DNA of 64,000 nucleotides from NCBI RefSeq assembly GCF_003217095.1, contig NZ_QJSR01000004.1, positions 248,001 through 312,000 of the forward strand, written 5' to 3'. Positions within the stretch are counted from its first letter, which is position 1. The number at the start of each line of letters is the position of its first letter. The position numbers were made by a program, and so were the translations under genes. This stretch comes from Rhizobium sp. PP-CC-3A-592. Its GTDB lineage: Bacteria; Pseudomonadota; Alphaproteobacteria; Rhizobiales; Rhizobiaceae. Of the stretch, positions 10,325-46,298 are shown one piece after another. Below the pieces are notes generated by a model. The model saw nothing but the letters and a program-made list of their open reading frames with translations, made no database searches and had not been told where the DNA came from.

Positions 10325-10957
10325 ATGCAGAGCGAATTGTTACGGGAAGACCGGCCGAGGTCTCCCGAAGAGCGGCTGAGGCCGCAACGGTCAAGGACCG
10401 ATTGCCCGATATTATTGTCACCGAGGCTCGTGCTGCGCGCGCCCCATGAAGACGATATCGACGCCCTTGCCCATCTTGCCAACAACGCCAACATCGCCAC
10501 CATGGTTTCGCGCATGCCGCATCCCTACACGGTGGCGGATGCCGCGGATTTCGTGCGACGTACGAATGCCGGCACGATTGGCAAGTGCGTCTATGCCATC
10601 ACCAAAGCGGACACGGGCGCCTTTCTCGGGTGCTGCGGTGTCGAGCCGCATGAGGATGGACGCACGGCCGAACTCGGCTACTGGCTGGGCGAACCGCATT
10701 GGAACAAGGGCTATGCGACGGAAGCCGCCCAGGCGCTGATCGACATGGCTTTCCGCACACGCGAGATCGCGCAGCTGGATGCACGCTGCCGGGTGATGAA
10801 CGTCGCCTCGCGGCGGGTCATCCAGAAATGCGGCTTCCAGTATCAGGGCGGCGGCATGGTCGGCAGCCTTGCGCTCGGCGGCATGGTGCCGGTCGAGTGG
10901 TTCCGGCTGGACCGCAAGACCTGGATCTCGCTCAGAAGCTGGGGAGGCGGACGATGA
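10325..10957 (+). CDS. GNAT family N-acetyltransferase, RimJ/RimL type
   Basis: This 210-residue protein has a RimJ/RimL-type GNAT fold: RLVLRAPHEDDIDALAHLANN near the N terminus, AELGYWLGEPHWNKGYATEAAQALIDMAF in the acetyl-CoA binding region, and VMNVASRRVIQKCGFQYQG near the end. Such enzymes acetylate the N terminus of a ribosomal or other protein, or a small molecule; the substrate is not visible. It stands between rpmA and obgE, a common position for these genes in rhizobia, and overlaps the next GNAT gene by an ATGA. The first 25 or so residues have no family match, so a later start is possible. Confidence 0.87.
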   Translation: MQSELLREDRPRSPEERLRPQRSRTDCPILLSPRLVLRAPHEDDIDALAHLANNANIATMVSRMPHPYTVADAADFVRRTNAGTIGKCVYAITKADTGAFLGCCGVEPHEDGRTAELGYWLGEPHWNKGYATEAAQALIDMAFRTREIAQLDARCRVMNVASRRVIQKCGFQYQGGGMVGSLALGGMVPVEWFRLDRKTWISLRSWGGGR

Positions 10958-23455: not shown

Positions 23456-26400
23456 TCAGTGAAAATTCCGGCCCTTCGGCATGACCTGCGCCGTCTCCAT
23501 AAGGCCGGATTTGATTCGCGCCTCGCGGCGCGCGCGCTCCCGCTGGGCCTGATCCACCGCATTGCCCTTCTGCCGCGCATCGACGGTCGCACGCAGCACC
23601 TCGTCCGCCCGTTCGTTGACGGCAAAGCGCCGGGCCTCGCCCTTGAGAAGACCCAGAGCCTCGGTCATGTCCGTCATGCTCTCGGCAACGACGTGGATGA
23701 CTCCGTTCTGGCTTTGCAGGCGGCCGGTGACCTTGACCAGCCTTGCCCCCATGACGACGGCGCGGAACGTCTCGAAAACGGCCTTCCAGACGATGATGTT
23801 GGCAACGCCCGTCTCGTCCTCCAGCGTCATGAAGATCACGCCCTTGGCGGACCCCGGCCGCTGCCGCACGAGAACGAGGCCGGCCACCGTGACGCGTCGC
23901 CCGGGACGCAGGCCCGACAGCCCACGGCTCGCCACCACACCGTCCCGGGCAAAGGCCTCCCGCATGAAGGAAACCGGATGGGCCTTGAGCGACAGAGACA
24001 GCGCCCTGTAATCGTTGACCACCTCTTCACCGGCCGGCATGGTCGGCAGGCGCATGGCCGGATCCGCCCGGAGGTCCGCCTCTCCCGCTGCGGCAAAGAG
24101 CGGCAGGCGCTCGGCCGGTGCCCGCTCGTCGAGCGCCTTGATCGCCCAGAGCGCCCGGCGGCGATCGAGCCCGATCGAACCGAAGGCATCCGCATCCGCC
24201 AGCCGCTCCAGCACGCTGCGCGCCAGTCCGGATCGCAGCCAGAGATCGTAGATCGAGGCATATCCCGCACCCCGTCCGGCAACGAGCTGCTGCATATCGT
24301 TTTCCCGCAGACCCTTCACCAGGCGAAAGCCGAGGCGGACGGCGTATCTCGTGCAGATGACATTACGCATGTCGCGATGCCGCGGATCGATCGCCCGCCG
24401 GTCGAAGGCGCTTCCCCGCGCACCATTCTCATCGTCCTGCCCTTGCGAGCCGCCGCCCTCCAGGATCGTTTCCCAGTCGGAGCGGTTGATATCGACGGCC
24501 CGCACCTGCACCCCGTGCTCGCGGGCGTCGCGCACCAGCTGCGCCGGAGCGTAAAACCCCATGGGCTGGGCGTTAAGGAGCGCCGCGCAGAAAACGTCGG
24601 GATAGAAGGTCTTGAACCAGCAGGAGGCATAGACGAGCAGGGCAAAGGAGGCCGCATGGCTTTCGGGAAAGCCGTACTCGCCGAACCCCTTGATCTGGTT
24701 GAAGCAGCGGACGGCGAAATCGCGGCTGTAACCGTTGGCGACCATGCCCTCGATCATCTTGGTCTCGAAATTCGCGACCAGCCCGGACCGCCGGAAGGTG
24801 GCCATGGCGCGGCGCAGCTGGTCGGCCTCGGCCGCCGAGAACCGCGCGGCCGTCATGGCGATCTGCATGGCCTGCTCCTGGAACAGGGGCACGCCCAGCG
24901 TCCGCTGCAGCACCGCCTCCAGCTCCAGACTTTCATAGGGGATCGCCTCGCCCCGCAGCCGGGCCTCCCGGCGCTTGAGATAGGGATGCACCATATCGCC
25001 CTGGATCGGGCCCGGCCGCACGATCGCGACCTCGATGACGAGATCGTAGAACTCCCGGGGTCTCAGCCGCGGCAGCATGCTCATCTGCGCCCGGCTCTCA
25101 ATCTGGAACACCCCGACCGTATCGGCCCGGCAGATCATGTCGTAGACCGGATTGTCGTCGTTCCCATAGTCGAGCTCGGTGTCGTAGACTTGCGAGAGCA
25201 GCATCTGCTTGCCGTAATGGGTCTCCAGCATGCGAAACGCCTTGGCGAGACAGGTGAGCATGCCAAGTGCCAGCACATCGACCTTGAGGATCTTCAGCGT
25301 ATCCAGATCGTCCTTATTCCACTCGATCATGTAGCGGCCGGGCATGGCCGTCGGCATGATCGGCACCACCTCGTCCAGCCGGTCCTTCGTGATGACGAAG
25401 CCGCCGACGTGCTGGGAGAGATGCCGCGGCATGTCCATCAGCCGCCCGGCATAGGTGAACATGCGCATCACGGTCGAGTCGGTGAGATCGAGCCCGGCGG
25501 CTTTTGCCTGCTCGTCGGTAAACGACGACGTCCACCAGCCCCAGATGGAAGCAGCAAGCGCCGTCTGCACATCCTCGGAAAAGCCGAACACCTTGGCCAC
25601 CTCGCGCCCGGCCGAGCGCGCCCGATAGCTGATGGCGGCCGCCGCGATGCCGGCATGCTCCTTGGTATAGGTATCGTAGATGAACTTGATCACCTCATCG
25701 CGCCGGGCATGCTCGAAATCGATGTCGATATCCGGCGGCTCGTCGCGGTCCATCGACAGGAAGCGATCGAAAAGAAGGGTGAACTTGACCGGATCGACCT
25801 CCGTCACGTGCAGGCAGTAGCAGACGGAGGAGTTCGCCGCGGACCCCCGGCCCTGACAGAGGATGCCCTTCGACCGCGCAAAGGCCACCAGCCGGTGGAC
25901 GGTCAGAAAATAGGGCTCGTACTGCTTCTTATGGATAAGATCGAGCTCATAGGCGATCTTCGTCTCCACGGCCTCCGGCACGCCTTGCGGATATCGCCGC
26001 GCAGCCCCTTCCCGCACCAGCCGTTCGAGCGTCTGTGCCGACGTCTCACCCGGTCCGGACTCATCGGGATAATTGTGCTTCAGCTCGTCGAGCGTGAAAT
26101 CGAGCGTCCGGAAGAAGCGTTCGGTATTGGCGACCGCTTGCGGGTAGCGGCGGAAGATGCGGACCATCTCGCCCGGCGCCTTGAGGAAGCGCTCGGCATT
26201 GGCCTGAAGCCGGAAGCCTGCCTCCGCAATCGTCACATGCTCGCGAATGGCCGTCATGACATCGGCAAGCGGTCGGCTGTCGGGGGAATGGTAGAGCACG
26301 TCGTTCGTGGCGATGAGACGCACGCCCGTGCTGTCGGCAAGGGCTGCGAGAGCTGCGAAATCCTGCGCATCGAACCCGTCATAGCGCGGCGTCATGCCGA

Positions 26401-27049
26401 GGAAGAGCCGGCCCTTCATGAGAGGCTGTAGCGACCGCAAGGTATCCCCGAGCGTCTTCCAGGCACGGACCTCCGTCTCGTCAAGGCCATCCTCCGTTCC
26501 TGCGTCGGATGGCGCTGCATGGGGTCCATCCGACGCTTCCCCCGGTCGGTCGGCCCCCTGTAGATCGGCCTGAACGCTCTCATGCCCGTTCTCATGGGTG
26601 CAGCGCTTCATCACGATCACCTGCAGGTGTTCCTGCCATGTCAGGAGATCGGAGAGGAAGAGGGTACAGGTGCCCTTATGGTCGGCACGCAGGTTGCCGG
26701 CGCTCAGCAACCGGCAGAGATGCGCCCATCCCTGCCGGTTGCGCGGATAGGCCAGCATGTCGGGCGAACCATCGGCAAAGACGAGGCGTGCGCCCGGCTG
26801 GAAAGGAAATTTTTCCTCGCGCGCCTCGGCATGGACCCGAACGACACCGGACAGCGTGTTGCGATCGGCGATCCCCAGGCCCCTGAGACCGATCCGCTTG
26901 GCCGTGACAACCATCTCCTTGGCGCCCGAGGCGCCGCGCAGGAAGGAGAAATTGGTACAGGCGCCCAGCTCGAAAAAGGTCGGCGGCTGGGCTTTGGGCG
27001 GCCCGCTACCTGGCTCTACCGAACCTCTGCCGGGTTCACGGCCGGTCAT
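23456..27049 (-). CDS. dnaE2: error-prone DNA polymerase DnaE2 (ImuC)
   Basis: DnaE2 is the C-family polymerase of the ImuA-ImuB-DnaE2 mutasome, used for translesion synthesis after DNA damage. The protein of 1197 residues has an N-terminal PHP region ([23 protein letters not shown]), the catalytic palm with [18 protein letters not shown] near 436, [19 protein letters not shown], the fingers, and a C-terminal OB region ([31 protein letters not shown]). It is about 100 residues longer than usual because of charged insertions near 150-190 and 830-860. The ATG at 27049 overlaps the imuB stop as ATGA. Last gene of the SOS-controlled imu operon. Confidence 0.96.
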
Positions 27050-28671
27050 GCGAAAATGCCGTGCATGAACCAGTCGGGATGCATCCGCTCGCGCTGGAAG
27101 AGGCCGTTGCGGAACATCCAGAAACGGCGCCCCGTCTCGTCCTCGATGCGAAAATAGTCGCGCGTCGGCGCGTCCTCGCCGTCGATCCACCACTCCGCGG
27201 CAATGCGCTCCGGCCCTTCCGCTCGGGCGACCCTGTAGGCTGTGCGCCGCCAGAAGAACCGCTCCGGCGCACCGTCGGGAACATCGGCAGCGGGAACCTC
27301 CACCCGTTCGGGATGGGTCAGAAGACGCAGGGGTCGCACGGGCATGACCGGCCATTCCTCCGCCTGCAGCATTTTCCCGGCTGGAAAGACGGCATCGCCT
27401 GCCGGCTGTAGGCTTGCCGCCCGCTCGGGGATATAGCTTGCGGCAAGAACCGCGATGGAGAGCACATCCTCCCCGAAACGGGCGATGACGCGATCGGTGA
27501 AATCGGCAAGCGCCCGGCTCTGGTCCGGCCTTCCGGAAAAATCATCCTGGACGGATTTGATCGGCTCGGTCTTGAGGACACAGAGCCGCAGGATCTCGAA
27601 ACCGAAACCGGCATCCAGATCGTCATGCACCGCGGCAAGCCGCTCCTTATAGAGTGCTGCGATGCGCTGCGGATCCCGCAACGGGGACGATGTACCGGCG
27701 AGCAGCCGGAACACTTTGCCGTCGACCCGAAAGAGCAGGAGCTCGAACTGGCGCCCGCCCTCTCCCCGCTCCTCCAGCGTGGTCTTGAGGCCCGTGGCAA
27801 GCTGCAGCGCCAGCCCGAGAATATCGTCTTCGCCGGAAACCGGCGAGATCAGCCGGCGCTCGACCGAAAGCTCGGCCACCGGGCGGCGCGGCGACAACGG
27901 CTCATCGTCATGCCCGAGTGCCTGGTCGAGCCGGAGGAAGACGAGCGGACCGAAGCGGCGCGCGAGCGCTGCCCGGGGTGCTTCCATGAGATCGGCGACA
28001 TGGGTCAGCCCCAGCCGGATCAGCGTGTCCGTCAACGTCTCCGGCAGCCGAAGCGCCGTCACGGGCAGGGGGCCGAGCGCAGCGGCCTCCTCTCCCGCCT
28101 CGATCACGCTATCGTCAGACAATCGTGCAGTGGAAAATCGTGCAAGGGCCCAGGCAAGACCGGGAGATGCGGCAATCGCCCCGCGCGCCTCGACGCCGAG
28201 CTGGAATAGGCGCGACAGGACATCGTCGAGCAGCGCCTTTTCCCCGCCATGCAGATGCGTGCAGCCGGTAATGTCGAGCGCCAGACCGTCGGCACCCGCA
28301 TAGGCGACCAGCGGCGTATAGCGATCGCACCAGTCGGCCAAGGCCGAAAGAAAGGCCTGGTCGGCAGCGGGATCGGCCGGCAGCACGTCGAGCTGCGGAT
28401 GCATGGCGCGGGCTTCGGCCACGCCCTGCCCCCGCTTCAGCCGCAGGCGATCGGCCACGCTGTCGAGCGCCACGATCCGCATGGCATTCTCGACCTTATC
28501 GGAAAACACCACCGGCGGGTGATCAGGACGCCCGCTTGAAAGCCATGACGCGCCCCAGCGTCGGCGCGCCACCCGGTCGGCCGACAGATGCGGAAAGGAC
28601 AGTGACAGGATCCGCTGCGTTTGCCGGAAGAGGGACGGCGACGGGGTCGAGAGGATGGAACCGGCGCGCAT
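27046..28671 (-). CDS. imuB: ImuB, inactive Y-family polymerase of the mutasome
   Basis: ImuB is a Y-family polymerase relative that lacks catalytic carboxylates and bridges DnaE2, ImuA and the beta clamp. The 541-residue protein has [18 protein letters not shown] near the N terminus, [39 protein letters not shown] (where active enzymes have an acidic pair), helix-hairpin-helix-like [25 protein letters not shown], and the little-finger region. The nearest ATG at 28671 is used, which makes a 149-base out-of-frame overlap with imuA; no ATG, GTG or TTG lies between it and the conserved ILSLSFPHL, so this or a non-standard start must serve. Confidence 0.9.
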
Positions 28672-29491
28672 GGGAACTCCATTCAAGGTAGGCATCGACA
28701 GGGGAAAAGGCCCGTGTCTTCTCGGCAATGACGTGAAAGGCGGGATGCCCGATGCCGGTCGTGAGCATTGTGCCATCGGGCAGCATGAACGGGGCTGCGG
28801 GCGCGGGACGCACGAGAAGACGCAGGTGCGCGCTGCTCGCCTCCTCCTCGCCCGCCTGCCGCAGAAGAAAGATCGGGACGCCGCTGCCCATCGACCGCAA
28901 TTGCAGCCGCCGGCTTTCCGGAAGGCCGAGACGCGCCGGATTGCCGCGGATCTCCAGAATGACGGCGGAAAACACGGAAAAGCCGAGTGCCGCCTCGGCA
29001 ATCCACAACGCCTGCTGCAGATTGCGAGGCCGGGAGAAGAGGGCGGCACGCAGATCGATCCCGAGAAGCGACAGGCCGACACCATAAGGCTCGCCCGCCT
29101 CCTGTCCGGCCATCGTCTCGGAGATCCAAAGGATCGGCCCGAGCTCGCCCCGCGCCTTGCGCCGCGCCTGGCAGAGGGCGGCAAGTCCCAGCGTAAACCC
29201 CGTGGCGGCACCGGCATCGCGCGTTTCCGCCACCCGGATTTCGCTCAACCCCTTGAGCGGCAGGCCGCCAGACATGGCATGGTCGAGCGCGGGAACGCCG
29301 AGCGGCAGCACGTCTTCCTGCCTGGTGACGTCCTGCCCGGGGAGAGACCGTCCGGACGCGGAAAATCCCGCACGTTCGCCCTCCGTCTCCAAGCTGGGAA
29401 GACAGGAACCGGATGGCCTGTCTCGTTCCAGTCGGGCAATGGCATCGCGCAGGGCGAGCACCGTCTCCCGCGGCACAGCGTTTTCAGCCAT
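28523..29491 (-). CDS. imuA: ImuA, RecA-like mutasome subunit
   Basis: ImuA is a RecA/SulA-like partner needed for DnaE2-dependent mutagenesis. The 322-residue protein has LPLGVPALDHAMSGGLPLKGLSEI (substrate strand before a degenerate P-loop), GPILWISETMAGQEAGEPYGVGLSLLGID, NLQQALWIAEAALGFSVFSAVILEIRG and LRSMGSGVPIFLLRQAG, matching the family. AGGAG precedes the ATG at 29491. It is the first gene of imuA-imuB-dnaE2, with a perfect SOS box just upstream, and its last 50 codons overlap imuB in another frame. Confidence 0.92.
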   Translation of the reverse strand: MAENAVPRETVLALRDAIARLERDRPSGSCLPSLETEGERAGFSASGRSLPGQDVTRQEDVLPLGVPALDHAMSGGLPLKGLSEIRVAETRDAGAATGFTLGLAALCQARRKARGELGPILWISETMAGQEAGEPYGVGLSLLGIDLRAALFSRPRNLQQALWIAEAALGFSVFSAVILEIRGNPARLGLPESRRLQLRSMGSGVPIFLLRQAGEEEASSAHLRLLVRPAPAAPFMLPDGTMLTTGIGHPAFHVIAEKTRAFSPVDAYLEWSSHARRFHPLDPVAVPLPANAADPVTVLSASVGRPGGAPTLGRVMAFKRAS

Positions 29492-29509: not shown

Positions 29510-29524
29510 GTTCTTGATATGTTC
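29510..29524 (-). promoter_or_regulatory. SOS box (LexA site) of imuA-imuB-dnaE2
   Basis: GTTCTTGATATGTTC is an exact match to the alphaproteobacterial LexA motif GTTC-N7-GTTC (GAAC-N7-GAAC read toward imuA). It ends 19 bases before the imuA ATG and overlaps the probable promoter (TTGACT at 29556-29551, AT-rich TATAAG near the box), so LexA would block transcription until DNA damage. Confidence 0.92.
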
Positions 29525-29662: not shown

Positions 29663-30097
29663 ATGGCCCGGATTGACCAAAGCGACGATTGGCGGGAACG
29701 CCATGCGCCGACCATCAGCACGTTCGAATCCCTGACGCTGGAGGCCTATGGGCATCTTCCCGAGGAATTCCGGCTGCTGGCCACAGACCTCATCATTGTG
29801 ATCGAAGATTTTCCGGATGACGACGTGTTCGAAGACATGGCACTGGAAACGCCATTCGACCTGTTGGGCCTGTTCGAAGGGCGCGGCATCGGCGAGCGGT
29901 TCACCATGGAAACCGGCACGATGCCGAACCGGATCACGCTCTATCGCCGACCGATCCTCGATTACTGGGCCGAAAACGACGAAACGCTGGGCGACATCAT
30001 CACCCATGTGCTGATCCACGAGATCGGCCATCATTTCGGCCTGTCGGATGACGACATGGAGCGCATCGAAGCGAGCGTGGAGCATGTCGGCGGCTAA
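29663..30097 (+). CDS. metallopeptidase family protein (zincin-like, DUF1025)
   Basis: The 144-residue protein carries a zinc protease motif HEIGHHFGLSDDDM with H119, E120 and H123, plus a candidate third ligand in the downstream aspartate, as in the small bacterial zincin-like family (PF06262). FESLTLEAYGHLPEEFRLL and the LGLFEGRGIGERF region are also typical. AAGGAG precedes the ATG. No signal peptide is seen, so it acts in the cytoplasm. The substrate is unknown. It is divergent from imuA, with 171 bases shared between them, so the SOS box could also influence it. Confidence 0.88.
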   Translation: MARIDQSDDWRERHAPTISTFESLTLEAYGHLPEEFRLLATDLIIVIEDFPDDDVFEDMALETPFDLLGLFEGRGIGERFTMETGTMPNRITLYRRPILDYWAENDETLGDIITHVLIHEIGHHFGLSDDDMERIEASVEHVGG

Positions 30098-31985: not shown

Positions 31986-32215
31986 GAGCCTGCTCCTTGT
32001 TGTCTTTCGATGTCTTGCCTCCGATCATTCCGGGCCGTTTGGCCAGCGGATATCAGAGGCGAATGTCACAACGGGTTCTCCCTGTTAACGAGGCGCTTCA
32101 CCGATCGTTCCGAAAAACATCCGCATCATTCGAAACCAGCTTGCACCTTTATGGAGACGATCAGTGTCGAAATATGAAACCGGTCACGCACACAACATTG
32201 ACGCGAGCGGCAAAA

Positions 32216-32230
32216 GAACATATGTAGAAC
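32216..32230 (+). promoter_or_regulatory. SOS box (LexA site) of the radical SAM-UdgX operon
   Basis: GAACATATGTAGAAC is an exact GAAC-N7-GAAC LexA motif. It ends only three bases before the ATG at 32234, so it lies where a ribosome binding site is expected. That placement means either transcription starts inside or very near the box and the mRNA has a minimal leader, or translation begins further downstream. Confidence 0.88.
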
Positions 32231-32233
32231 ATC

Positions 32234-33466
32234 ATGAAAAAGTCGCTGAAAGAGCGTTTGGCTATCCTCTCGGATGCCGCCAAATACGATGCGTCCTGTG
32301 CCTCCAGCGGAACGACGAAACGCAATTCGTCGGCCAGCGGCGGCCTTGGCTCCACGGAGGGATCCGGCATCTGTCATGCCTATGCGCCGGACGGACGATG
32401 CATTTCGCTGCTCAAGATCCTGATGACGAACTTCTGCATCTACGACTGCGCTTATTGCATCAACAGGTCGTCGAGCAATGTCGAGCGCGCACGCTTTTCG
32501 GTCGAGGAAGTGGTCTGGCTGACGCTCGAATTCTATCGGCGCAACTATATCGAAGGCCTGTTCCTGTCGTCCGGCATCATCCGCTCGTCCGACCATACGA
32601 TGGAGGAGATGGTGCGCATCGCGCGCGAGCTGCGCGTCACGCATAATTTCCGCGGCTACATCCATTTGAAATCGATCCCCGAGGCGTCTGCCGCGCTGAT
32701 CGAGGAGGCCGGGCTTTATGCGGACCGCCTGTCGATCAACATCGAACTGCCGACCGATGCCGGCCTGACGCGCTATGCGCCGGAAAAACGGCCGGCCGGC
32801 ATTCGCAAGTCGATGGGCGATCTTCGCCTGAAGATCGAGGAAATGCGCGACCCGACCCTGCAGACCAAGCGCATACGGCGCTTTGCGCCCGCCGGCCAGA
32901 GCACGCAGATGATCGTCGGGGCCGACCAGGCGAACGACAGCGTCATCCTCGGCACCAGTGCCCGGCTTTACGGCAGCTACGGCCTGCGCCGCGTCTATTA
33001 CTCCGCCTTCAGCCCCATTCCGGATGCCTCGCGCAACCTGCCCCTCGTCAAGCCGCCTTTGATGCGCGAGCACCGGCTCTACCAGGCCGACTGGCTCTAT
33101 CGCTTCTACGGCTTCGGCATCGACGAGATCACGCGCGACCAGCCGGATGGCATGCTCGACCTCGATCTCGACCCGAAGCTCGCCTGGGCGCTCGCCAACC
33201 GGCAGCGCTTTCCCGTCGACATCAACAAGGCCGATCGCGAGATGCTTCTCCGCGTGCCCGGTTTCGGCACGAAGATCGTCCGCGCCATCCTCACCGCCCG
33301 TCGGCACCGCACCTTGCGGCTGGAGGATCTCGTCCGCCTCAAGGTCTCATTGAAAAAGGTACAGGCCTTCATCATTGCCGAAGGCTGGACGCCGTCGCGC
33401 CTCATCGACCGGCCGGACCTGCGCACGATGTTCGCGCCGAAACCGGAACAGCTGGTCCTTCTCTGA
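32234..33466 (+). CDS. putative DNA modification/repair radical SAM protein
   Basis: The 410-residue protein has a radical SAM core with cluster cysteines C68, C72 and C75 in FCIYDCAYCINR, followed by LFLSSGIIRSSDHTMEEM and LSINIELPTDAGLTRYAPEK. The C-terminal part holds a helix-hairpin-helix (DINKADREMLLRVPGFGTKIVRAIL near 329-354), implying DNA or RNA binding. It matches the family named 'putative DNA modification/repair radical SAM protein' and is distantly like spore photoproduct lyase. The stop overlaps the UdgX gene start (TGATG). A LexA box lies in front. The reaction is not known. Confidence 0.9.
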   Translation: MKKSLKERLAILSDAAKYDASCASSGTTKRNSSASGGLGSTEGSGICHAYAPDGRCISLLKILMTNFCIYDCAYCINRSSSNVERARFSVEEVVWLTLEFYRRNYIEGLFLSSGIIRSSDHTMEEMVRIARELRVTHNFRGYIHLKSIPEASAALIEEAGLYADRLSINIELPTDAGLTRYAPEKRPAGIRKSMGDLRLKIEEMRDPTLQTKRIRRFAPAGQSTQMIVGADQANDSVILGTSARLYGSYGLRRVYYSAFSPIPDASRNLPLVKPPLMREHRLYQADWLYRFYGFGIDEITRDQPDGMLDLDLDPKLAWALANRQRFPVDINKADREMLLRVPGFGTKIVRAILTARRHRTLRLEDLVRLKVSLKKVQAFIIAEGWTPSRLIDRPDLRTMFAPKPEQLVLL

Positions 33467-35028
33467 TGCAGCCGCTCGGCCTTGAGAGGCAAACGGTCAC
33501 GCTCGACGGGAAGGGCCATTTCGGCGAATGGCGGGAGGCCGCACGCCGGCTTTTGATGGTGGGAACGCTGCCGGCCGCCGTGGACTGGCGGGAAAAGCAT
33601 GGTGCCACCGACCTCTTTGCCGATCCTCCGCCGGCGCGGCTGAACGCAGAAGGAAAACCGGAGGGAGCGCGGCCGGAGATCACCGTTCCCCGCGCCTTCA
33701 TGACGCTGGCCGAAACCGTGATCTGCCACTCCGATCCCGGCCGTTTCGGTCTTCTCTATCGCACGCTCTGGCGCCTGCAGGCCGAGCGCAATCTGCTCGA
33801 CATCGTCTCCGATGCCGATGTCGTCCGGCTCAATGCCATGGAAAAATCCGTTCGTCGCGACAGCCACAAAATGAAGGCCTTCGTGCGCTTCAAGGAGATC
33901 GGCGCCAGCACATCCACAACAAGCACATCGACGACGGACATCATGGAGGTGATCGCCCGTCCCGCCCCTCTGGAGACGAGCGGCATCCCGATCGGCCGCC
34001 GGCGCTTTTTCGCCTGGTTCGAGCCGGACCATTTCATCGTCGCGCGCGCCGCACCTTTCTTCCAGCGGCGCTTCACCGACATGGACTGGATCATCGCCAC
34101 GCCGAAAGGCTCCGCCGCCTGGGATGGAACCGCGCTGACGGTGACGTCCGAGCCAGCGGACGATCCCAAGCTGACCGATGACGCGGACACGCTGTGGCGC
34201 ACCTATTACAGCAACATCTTCAATCCGGCGCGGCTGAAAGTGAAAGCGATGCAGTCGGAAATGCCAAAGAAATACTGGAAGAACCTGCCCGAAGCCGACC
34301 TCATCCCCGGTCTGATCGCCGGCGCGGAAGAGAAGGTGCGGGCCATGGCCGAACAAGCCATGAAGGATCCGCCGGCCTTCCACGCGAAGGTGCGCGAGGC
34401 CGCCATGCCGAAGACCGAGGAGAACACCGCCCGTCCCGGTACGCTGGAGGCCGCACGGGCAGAGGCGCGCGACTGCACCCGCTGTCCGCTCTCCTGCAAG
34501 GCAACGCAGACCGTGTTCGGCGAAGGACCGGACGACGCGAAACTGATGTTCGTCGGCGAGCAGCCGGGCGACCAGGAGGATCTTGCCGGAAGGCCCTTCA
34601 TCGGCCCCGCCGGCAAGATGTTCGACACGATCGCCGGCGAGGTCGATCTCGATCGCAAACATGCCTATGTCACCAATGCGGTGAAGCACTTCAAATACGA
34701 GCCGCGCGGCAAACGCCGCATCCACCAGAAGCCGAACATGGGCGAAATCCGCGCCTGCCGCTGGTGGCTGAAGCTCGAACTCGACCTGATCCAGCCGAAA
34801 CTGGTGGTCGCCATGGGCGCAACGGCGCTGACGTCCGTCATGAACCATGCCGAACGCCTCAGCGACTACCGGAGCCGCAAGGTCGATCTCGACGACGGGC
34901 GCGCGCTCTACACCACGGTCCACCCCTCCTACCTCCTGCGTATCCCCGACGAGGGACGCAAGCGCGAGGAGATCAACCGTTTTCGCGAAGACCTTCAGGC
35001 CATAAAGAGCCTCAGCGACACACTATAG
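33466..35028 (+). CDS. udgX: DUF4130-UdgX fusion: uracil-DNA binding/glycosylase family protein
   Basis: A 520-residue fusion. The first 275 or so residues are a DUF4130 region (MKAFVRFKEI; RRRFFAWFEPDHFIVARAAPFFQRRF; YYSNIFNPARLKVKAMQ), the partner domain found with this radical SAM family. From about 320 comes UdgX: iron-sulfur cysteines C337, C340 and C344 in CTRCPLSCK, motif GEQPGDQEDLAGRPFIGPAG near 364, and the R-loop KRRIHQKP with H420, the histidine that in mycobacterial UdgX bonds covalently to the abasic site after uracil removal. A low-complexity STSTTSTSTT run sits at 148-157. It is in one operon with the radical SAM gene. Confidence 0.93.
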   Translation: MQPLGLERQTVTLDGKGHFGEWREAARRLLMVGTLPAAVDWREKHGATDLFADPPPARLNAEGKPEGARPEITVPRAFMTLAETVICHSDPGRFGLLYRTLWRLQAERNLLDIVSDADVVRLNAMEKSVRRDSHKMKAFVRFKEIGASTSTTSTSTTDIMEVIARPAPLETSGIPIGRRRFFAWFEPDHFIVARAAPFFQRRFTDMDWIIATPKGSAAWDGTALTVTSEPADDPKLTDDADTLWRTYYSNIFNPARLKVKAMQSEMPKKYWKNLPEADLIPGLIAGAEEKVRAMAEQAMKDPPAFHAKVREAAMPKTEENTARPGTLEAARAEARDCTRCPLSCKATQTVFGEGPDDAKLMFVGEQPGDQEDLAGRPFIGPAGKMFDTIAGEVDLDRKHAYVTNAVKHFKYEPRGKRRIHQKPNMGEIRACRWWLKLELDLIQPKLVVAMGATALTSVMNHAERLSDYRSRKVDLDDGRALYTTVHPSYLLRIPDEGRKREEINRFREDLQAIKSLSDTL

Positions 35029-45200: not shown

Positions 45201-46298
45201 TCAATGCGGGGCGACAGCGTCGGCCCCGACCGGATGATGCCTCTTGTTGTACCGAATGGACGACCAGAGGGCGATGCCGATGAGCGTCGCGCCACCGAGA
45301 CCGGTGATGACCTCTGGGATATGCACCAGGGTCTGGACGTACATGATCACCGAGAGGATCAGGATCGCATAGAACGCGCCGTGTTCCAGGTAGCGATATT
45401 CCGCGAGCGTTCCCTTCTCCACCAGCATAATCGTCATGGACCGCACATACATGGCGCCGATGCCGAGGCCGATGGCGATGACGAACAGGTTCTGCGTCAG
45501 CGCGAAGGCGCCGATGACGCCGTCGAACGAGAAGCTGGCATCGAGCACTTCGAGATAGATGAATGCGCCCAGGCCACCCTTCGCCGCTTCGCTCATGGTC
45601 TTCTGCGACGCATCGAGCAGGCCGCCGATCACTTCGACCACGAGGAAGGTGACGAGGCCGTAGATGGCCGAGAAGACGAAGGTCGTGCTCTCGATATCCG
45701 GCGTCGCCGCATCGTCCGGGATCAGCGCCGAGAAGGCGAGGATCAGGACGAGGACGAAAGCGATTTCGACACCCTTGATGCTGGCAGCCGCCGACAGACG
45801 CTTCTCGATGAAGGAGATCCAATGGATCTTCTTGTCATGGTCGAAGAAATAGGAGAGACCGACCATCATCAGGAAGGTGCCGCCGAAGGCTGCGATCGGC
45901 AGGTGGGCGTCGTTCATAATGCGCGCATACTCGTCCGGACGCGCAGCGGCGAGGATGATGGCATCGATTGGGCCGATCCCGGCCGCGATCACCACAATCA
46001 GCAGCGGGAAGACGATCCGCATACCGAAGACGGCAATGAGAATGCCCCAGGTCAGGAACCGCTGCTGCCAGATCGGCGTCATGTCCTTAAGCTTGTTGGC
46101 ATTGACGATGGCATTGTCGAAGGACAGCGAGATTTCGAGCACGGCGAGTACCGTGCAGATGAAGAAGACGGTGGCCATGCCGCCGATTGTTCCGGTCTCG
46201 TTCCAGCCGAGCCAAGCGCCGAGCGCAAGACCGAGGCCGGTGACGATGAAGGCCCAGGTGAAATAGCTGAGCGTCGATGTCTGGGTGGAGGGGTTCAT
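45201..46298 (-). CDS. DUF475 / TerC-like integral membrane protein
   Basis: The 365-residue protein has about nine membrane segments and the two repeated acidic motifs of the TerC-like superfamily: EISLSFDNAIVNANKLKDM near 55-73 and EVLDASFSFDGVIGAFALT near 237-255. TerC relatives are linked to metal ion export and loading of exported metalloproteins, and to tellurite resistance; DUF475 itself is not characterised. A GGGAGG site precedes the ATG at 46298, which lies inside the stop of a 39-codon upstream frame. I looked for a manganese (yybP-ykoY) riboswitch in the leader and did not find convincing conserved loops. Confidence 0.88.
   Translation of the reverse strand: MNPSTQTSTLSYFTWAFIVTGLGLALGAWLGWNETGTIGGMATVFFICTVLAVLEISLSFDNAIVNANKLKDMTPIWQQRFLTWGILIAVFGMRIVFPLLIVVIAAGIGPIDAIILAAARPDEYARIMNDAHLPIAAFGGTFLMMVGLSYFFDHDKKIHWISFIEKRLSAAASIKGVEIAFVLVLILAFSALIPDDAATPDIESTTFVFSAIYGLVTFLVVEVIGGLLDASQKTMSEAAKGGLGAFIYLEVLDASFSFDGVIGAFALTQNLFVIAIGLGIGAMYVRSMTIMLVEKGTLAEYRYLEHGAFYAILILSVIMYVQTLVHIPEVITGLGGATLIGIALWSSIRYNKRHHPVGADAVAPH

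Follow-up and report, generated by a model that had tools for sequence, protein, structure and literature searches.

A predicted SOS operon of a radical SAM protein with a clamp-type C terminus and a DUF4130-UdgX protein in Rhizobium sp. PP-CC-3A-592

The 64-kb window analyzed here, a contiguous stretch of the genome of Rhizobium sp. PP-CC-3A-592 within which all coordinates are given, contains a LexA box directly followed by two genes for a radical S-adenosylmethionine (SAM) protein and a DUF4130-UdgX fusion protein. Open reading frame (ORF) 1 (32234-33466, plus strand) encodes 410 aa and ORF2 (33466-35028, plus strand) encodes 520 aa, with a one-base overlap within TGATG. The ORF1 product scored 569.4 bits against TIGR03916 (curated cut-off, 343.5), a family that we take to be the same as COG4277. 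The ORF2 product scored 211 bits against TIGR03915 (DUF4130; cut-off, 112.25), 129 bits against PF13566 (cut-off, 27), and 332.8 bits against TIGR03914 (UdgX; cut-off, 189.95). The closest named record among the matches listed was Ferranicluibacter rubi CRRU44 (99.8% identity). The features of the locus are as follows, with residue conservation in the radical SAM protein counted over 116 nonredundant sequences.

32198..32203, plus strand: -35-like TTGACG, read from the sequence, at -18 relative to the box
32216..32230, plus strand: LexA box GAACATATGTAGAAC of the alphaproteobacterial GAAC-N7-GAAC type, found by pattern match and conserved upstream of orthologs
32234..33466, plus strand: radical SAM gene (TIGR03916/COG4277 type), 410 aa, from ORF and profile match
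32297..32401, plus strand: codons for C22, C47, and C56, candidate auxiliary Fe-S ligands, invariant in 116/116
32435..32458, plus strand: radical SAM CxxxCxxC motif (C68, C72, C75), invariant in 116/116
33212..33304, plus strand: helix-hairpin-helix (HhH; aa 327-357), HHH_3 at E = 2.1e-4, with 21.8 bits falling short of the curated cut-off (27)
33449..33463, plus strand: C-terminal QLVLL, a motif of the beta-sliding-clamp-binding type (Q406 in 116/116, L409 in 113/116)
33466..34296, plus strand: DUF4130 (TIGR03915) domain, aa 1-277
33904..33990, plus strand: Ser/Thr-rich, clade-specific insertion inside DUF4130 (aa ~147-175), from alignment
34300..35028, plus strand: UdgX domain (aa 279-513) and C terminus including the stop codon, TIGR03914 at 333 bits
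34711..34725, plus strand: R-loop KRRIH (residues 416-420), with H420 equivalent to H109 of Mycobacterium smegmatis UdgX (MsmUdgX), from alignment

An initial annotation of the window had placed a LexA box three bases before a two-gene unit for a radical SAM protein with an HhH and a DUF4130-UdgX fusion with an intact KRRIH loop. The coordinates of the box were confirmed, three profiles (TIGR03916, TIGR03915, and TIGR03914) exceeded their cut-offs, and the UdgX-type crosslinking residues were present; the HhH match was subthreshold.

Only 3 nt separate the end of the box (32230) from the ATG of the radical SAM gene (32234). Because GAACN7GAAC occurs four times in the window versus 1.77 times expected, with 11 of 100 shuffles containing equally many sites, the box in this window alone is weak evidence, and conservation in relatives carries the weight. 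A close-relative set comprised the best 80 of 583 confirmed stretches, all close kin at 81 to 100% identity. The box was found upstream of the gene in 80/80, compared with 0/80 for a reversed-pattern control and 35/5035 other 250-nt windows. In a class sample, a radical SAM protein over the cut-off was encoded by 25/385 genomes, and the box lay within 300 nt upstream in 24 of these 25 carriers (reversed control, 0/25). A phylum sample gave 84 carriers among 398 genomes. The class and phylum samples, which share genomes, were pooled with each locus counted once, and loci were called alphaproteobacterial if their kinship to the window was "same class" or nearer. Within 250 nt upstream, 67/68 alphaproteobacterial loci, the window's own included, carried the box, against 21/3291 of the 250-nt windows elsewhere in these loci; the reversed pattern appeared in 1/69. 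The 68 omit G045, which was over the cut-off in the class sample (where its box was seen in the 25-genome check) and is absent from the pooled loci, and L247, a below-cut-off fragment that belongs to the 178 pooled loci and lies outside the 177 radical SAM proteins and the 68; it is within the 69, with the box present. The weak matches L106 to L110 were not counted, except that the genome of L106 is that of L247, and L249, L250, L251, L252, and L253 were excluded from all counts. The close-relative and pooled counts are not independent because the two sets partly overlap, L054 and L157 being on contigs of equal length.

Outside the Alphaproteobacteria, the site at the same place was of another type. 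CTGTN8ACAG, the LexA box of Beta- and Gammaproteobacteria, was found in 19/29 such loci (background, 6/1359 windows). It was found upstream in 0/68 alphaproteobacterial loci, and the GAAC box in 0/29 of the others. Five of the ten loci lacking the CTGT box carried a CTGT-type box with one mismatch. Another three, all of family f196 (L187, L188, L192), had a palindrome ~40 nt before the gene and no known LexA box; this palindrome, GGTCTCAT-N3-ATGAGACC, was complete in L188 and L192 and shorter in L187, and is perhaps that lineage's own LexA site. The regulatory site thus tracks the lineage-specific preference of LexA, a pattern not easily accounted for unless LexA controls the operon. The Rhizobium genome itself encodes a lexA match over the cut-off (177.6 bits), with a GAACN7GAAC site ~50 nt before its start. 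The AT-rich form GAACAWWN4GAAC occurred 12 times in this genome versus twice for the reversed pattern. Among these sites are the ones preceding imuA and the pair, and one that lies between ORFs resembling ssb and uvrA. A chance origin of the box was rejected on the conservation counts of 67/68 and 80/80. From its place and conservation, we conclude that the box almost certainly mediates repression of the operon by LexA. The initial proposal of SOS control rather than a housekeeping role is borne out by the retention of the box upstream of orthologs, by the lineage-matched exchange of box type, and by clustering with imuA-imuB-dnaE2 in part of the loci, described below.

Of the 133 loci in which a forward GAAC box stands no more than 120 nt upstream, 112 have the start codon 2 to 7 nt behind the box; 86 have TTG[AT]C in the 35 nt preceding the box, 65 of them exactly at -16. 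No promoter in the window reached the threshold of a consensus scan. From the position of TTGACG and its spacing, the box would cover the expected -10 element, and with the ATG directly behind the box the transcript may be leaderless.

The radical SAM protein carries more than the canonical cluster motif. C22, C47, and C56 are as invariant as the CxxxCxxC cysteines and were also invariant in a 40-sequence alignment (A2), suggesting that they probably hold a second Fe-S cluster. Lipoyl synthase-type auxiliary clusters are bound by an N-terminal CX4CX5C motif. The spacing here, CX24CX8C, is unlike that motif, and relative to lipoyl synthase and TYW1 the window protein has other cysteine spacing and adds an HhH and a clamp-type tail. 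The HhH showed weak profile similarity to RuvA and ComEA chains. A sequence search for a solved structure of the radical SAM protein matched only this part (RuvA, ComEA) and short radical SAM stretches of other enzymes. The predicted structure recovered the radical SAM fold, with the N-terminal part at a predicted local distance difference test score (pLDDT) below 50. In a test for SplB kinship, TIGR03916 was the sole NCBIfam match, and no SplB was among the 50 structure matches listed. A 38%-identical relative on plasmid 1 of Gemmatirosa kalamazoonensis (L251) lacks the three extra cysteines and keeps a QLSLW tail; it is probably a paralog.

A clamp-type motif lies within the last 12 aa of 175/177 proteins, in 155 cases as Q[LM]xL[FLWI], in 13 as a hexapeptide, and in 7 in a looser form (tails such as QLSLL, QLSLF, QLELF, QMALW, and QLSLAL). 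The same regular expression matched 51/5776 windows elsewhere in these proteins. The two exceptions have similar motifs at the same place: L007 has QQMALF before an extension, and in L049 QLTLM runs straight into DUF4130 within one ORF. Q406 is invariant while most neighboring columns vary. More distant proteins keep the motif as well, as QLLLDF in Bacteroides, QLSLF in Subdoligranulum, and QLSFF on a gut phage contig. Bacterial clamp clients typically carry a QL[S/D]LF-type pentapeptide or a QLxLxL/F hexapeptide at an accessible end. The QLVLL of the window is a less canonical, leucine-ending form rather than a strict QLxLF and fits the QMSLL type. The last five residues of the model have a pLDDT of <50. 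On the strength of this motif, the radical SAM protein very likely docks on the DnaN clamp.

DUF4130 is encoded downstream of the radical SAM gene on the same strand in 178/178 loci, within 60 nt in 172 (by script-chosen start codons). Six of its residues, R141, F142, P187, F199, R202, and R256, were identical in 161/161 aligned rows. The initial annotation had described a low-complexity linker between domains; aa ~147-175 instead form an insertion inside DUF4130, the columns of which are gaps in ~154/159 aligned sequences. Proteins of the DHH-DHHA1 (RecJ-like) superfamily have conserved Asp/His metal ligands. The candidates for such ligands in DUF4130, D116, H134, and D238, are conserved at ≥95%, but each is lost from at least one of four distant rows. 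RecJ homology was rejected at the sequence level, since hhalign against 30 RecJ sequences, using a DUF4130 profile without the L049 fusion row, gave a probability of 0.2% compared with 0.1 and 0.2% for two unrelated pairs. A sequence search for solved structures returned insignificant matches for DUF4130 and a match for the UdgX domain. DUF4130 is most likely a nucleic acid-binding scaffold with a putative RecJ/DHH-like fold and no conserved metal ligands.

The UdgX domain is fused to DUF4130 in 148/178 loci and was not found in 30/178; a Bacteroides plasmid likewise encodes radical SAM and DUF4130 proteins without UdgX. Where a residue is aligned, the H420 column holds H in 131/132 sequences, and R418 is present in 132/132. 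The three UdgX motifs given in the available passages of PMC10359453, GEQPG (motif A), the KRRIH loop, and an HPSxLLR-type motif B, are all present in the window protein. MsmUdgX (PDB 6AJO, 8IIE, and others) has the same motifs and matched with 210 bits, but its solved chains (205 to 229 residues) consist of the UdgX domain alone, whereas the window UdgX follows DUF4130 in one polypeptide and has a radical SAM gene as its partner. The initial argument that the linker and full fusion place three activities on one substrate was rejected: the linker is the clade-specific insertion described above, the radical SAM protein of the window is a separate protein, and UdgX was not found in the 30 loci above. 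In L049 (Candidatus Phyllobacterium onerii), all three do lie in one 897-aa ORF, which is either a natural fusion or an assembly error. Another relative, L186, has a gene of the cytidine/deoxycytidylate deaminase type (PF00383, 48 bits) between the radical SAM and DUF4130-UdgX genes, where it adjoins the gene for a putative uracil-trapping protein.

A second set of SOS-type genes lies nearby.

23456..29491, minus strand: imuA-imuB-dnaE2 cassette, from ORFs and profiles, 2.7 kb from the pair
29510..29524, minus strand: second LexA box GAACATATCAAGAAC, before imuA, from pattern match

The DnaE2-type polymerase scored over its cut-off (1326 bits), ImuA scored 50 bits against a cut-off of 150, and ImuB was named from its place and weak Y-family matches; because the ImuA model fell below its cut-off, imuA and imuB are named partly from position. 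When 6 to 8 kb of flanking DNA was fetched for each locus (less at contig ends), imu genes were found in 15/178, and their arrangement was of three kinds. A divergent imu cassette lies 2.7 kb away in the window and in two close relatives. In 7/8 loci of family f3, the pair is divergent from imuA, and in L171 and L173, the two inspected closely, both units share one box. In 5/13 loci of family f15, a dnaE2 match starts 49 to 86 nt behind the DUF4130-UdgX gene. Four of these five have imuA and imuB upstream on the same strand,; in L161 ~60 nt separate the end of imuB from the radical SAM gene, and in the other three the gap is 0.9 to 2.5 kb. L169 shows dnaE2 only. With a match at E = 0 used as a proxy for DnaE2 and every genome given full weight regardless of kinship, DnaE2 was found in 72/84 pair-bearing genomes; it was over the cut-off in 170/398 genomes of the phylum sample. 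Strict dependence on DnaE2 was rejected because the remaining 12/84 lack an E = 0 match, which indicates that the pair can work without it. The Rhizobium genome has two DnaE2-type matches over the cut-off, at G000:C4:271624-274983 (in the window) and G000:C13:16132-19242. Divergent from imuA, a Zincin_1 (PF06262) metallopeptidase gene occupies 29663-30097 (plus strand), and both genes might be SOS regulated because the box at 29510-29524 lies between them.

The operon had initially been regarded as an undescribed system, a claim that the literature does not sustain. PMC8565304 (2021), in the passages available, predicts SOS regulation of a COG1573-COG4277 operon in Bacteroidetes, regards it as a putative base excision repair system, and credits Erill 2016 and da Rocha 2008 with earlier reports of such regulation in Verrucomicrobia and Alphaproteobacteria. 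That operon is likewise a two-gene unit of a uracil-DNA glycosylase (UDG) family member and COG4277 under predicted LexA control; those passages do not mention a clamp motif, auxiliary cysteines, or DUF4130. A figure legend in PMC3765255 (2013) connects DUF4130 to radical SAM and UDG proteins. As excerpted, PMC10776899 describes UdgX as scattered, with three copies in Rhizobium leguminosarum, and PMC1839093 reports four UDG-family genes in Caulobacter. The window proteins do not differ in kind from the TIGR03916, TIGR03915, and TIGR03914 families, all three models of which matched over their cut-offs; relative to TIGR03915, the Ser/Thr insertion is particular to the clade of the window. SRAP proteins (YedK, HMCES) shield abasic sites covalently by a fold and chemistry different from those of the pair. 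They resemble the pair in working mode only, and the pair is not a member; PMC3765255, in the part available, associates SRAP with SOS mutagenic operons. The ImuA-ImuB-DnaE2 mutasome has the same LexA box type and, in some relatives, shares the locus or a single divergent box with the pair, which differs in not being a polymerase and in its presence in the 12 genomes above. In the open-license literature, we found neither UdgX nor a clamp-binding motif together with radical SAM, and no described reaction for the radical SAM-DUF4130 pair. The clamp-type tail and the extra cysteines, both family-wide, were not found described in the open-license literature searched. We therefore regard the locus as a known but unexplained SOS operon, to which this analysis adds a testable clamp hook and a tie to mutasome genes.

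These features can be assembled into a working model. LexA would sit over the core promoter and keep the operon repressed, and given the gene overlap both proteins would probably be made together after damage. The radical SAM protein would then use its C-terminal QLxLF-type peptide to attach to the DnaN clamp and its HhH to contact DNA. As in other members of its superfamily, the CxxxCxxC cluster would generate a 5'-deoxyadenosyl radical, probably assisted by the second cluster on C22, C47, and C56, with DUF4130 as the obligate partner. By analogy to MsmUdgX, the fused UdgX would find and excise uracil, and H420 would become bonded to the abasic sugar and shield the site at the fork. The radical SAM-DUF4130 core might then repair or process that lesion or one met by ImuA-ImuB-DnaE2. 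We lean toward an SOS-induced radical SAM complex that is tethered to the clamp and deals with DNA lesions alongside translesion synthesis, and lesion processing near the fork appears reasonably likely. More tentatively, the pair could serve the SOS mutasome as an accessory arm tethered to the clamp, with a two-cluster radical SAM enzyme and a catalytically dead RecJ-like partner working there on lesions or abasic sites and UdgX keeping the site covalently bound; we know of no precedent for such repair chemistry.

Other readings fit parts of the evidence. The radical SAM protein might, like spore photoproduct lyase, directly reverse a base lesion of the UV or oxidation type, and UdgX would then be an independent module that handles deaminated bases. 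This reading is compatible with SOS control and with the modeled radical SAM fold, and the 2013 analysis in PMC3765255, in the part available, places SplB-like radical SAM photolyases beside DUF4130. It is nevertheless rather unlikely for the window protein, with its three extra invariant cysteines and obligate DUF4130 partner. Neither is known as a feature of SplB. A system centered on UdgX, trapping uracil-derived abasic sites in single-stranded DNA while radical SAM-DUF4130 undoes or processes the His-C1' bond, would account for the near invariance of the crosslinking residues where the domain is present, for the fusion in 148/178 loci, and for the relative with all three parts in one ORF. 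However, radical SAM and DUF4130 stay paired in the 30 loci and the Bacteroides plasmid lacking a fused UdgX, and because the core persists there, reversal of the UdgX bond is disfavored as its core reaction unless a separate UdgX is present; we consider this reading unlikely, slightly more so than direct lesion reversal. Marking of DNA rather than repair, in which the radical SAM protein would attach a chemical group such as sulfur given up by an auxiliary cluster, is very improbable. That the pair is housekeeping behind a chance box is scarcely credible: the surplus of sites in the window and the shuffles that matched it would allow a chance match, but neither the conservation of the box nor the lineage-matched swap of its type would follow.

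The families of the pair are widespread, with the carriers in 84/398 phylum genomes joined by members in Bacteroidota and Bacillota and by matches on 158 plasmid records. Virus-borne relatives comprised 2 IMG/VR loci and 10 records of a phage collection, 8 of which are unannotated human-fecal "Bacteriophage sp." scaffolds. Given the tail on nearly all members examined, the enzyme would act at the replication clamp, and the process concerned is suggested by the proximity of imuA-imuB-dnaE2 in some lineages. If the reaction is on DNA, many bacteria would possess an SOS-induced repair activity based on radical chemistry.

Several of the 12 AT-rich boxes in the Rhizobium genome have no repair-like gene downstream. 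Three LexA-like boxes of this kind precede short uncharacterized ORFs, at G000:C4:12321 (L116), G000:C9:59369 (L119), and G000:C13:38370 (L120), and, from their position, these ORFs are possible further SOS genes. The two other GAAC-N7-GAAC matches in the window, at 10691-10705 (plus strand) and 46189-46203 (minus strand), have GC-richer spacers and probably arose by chance.

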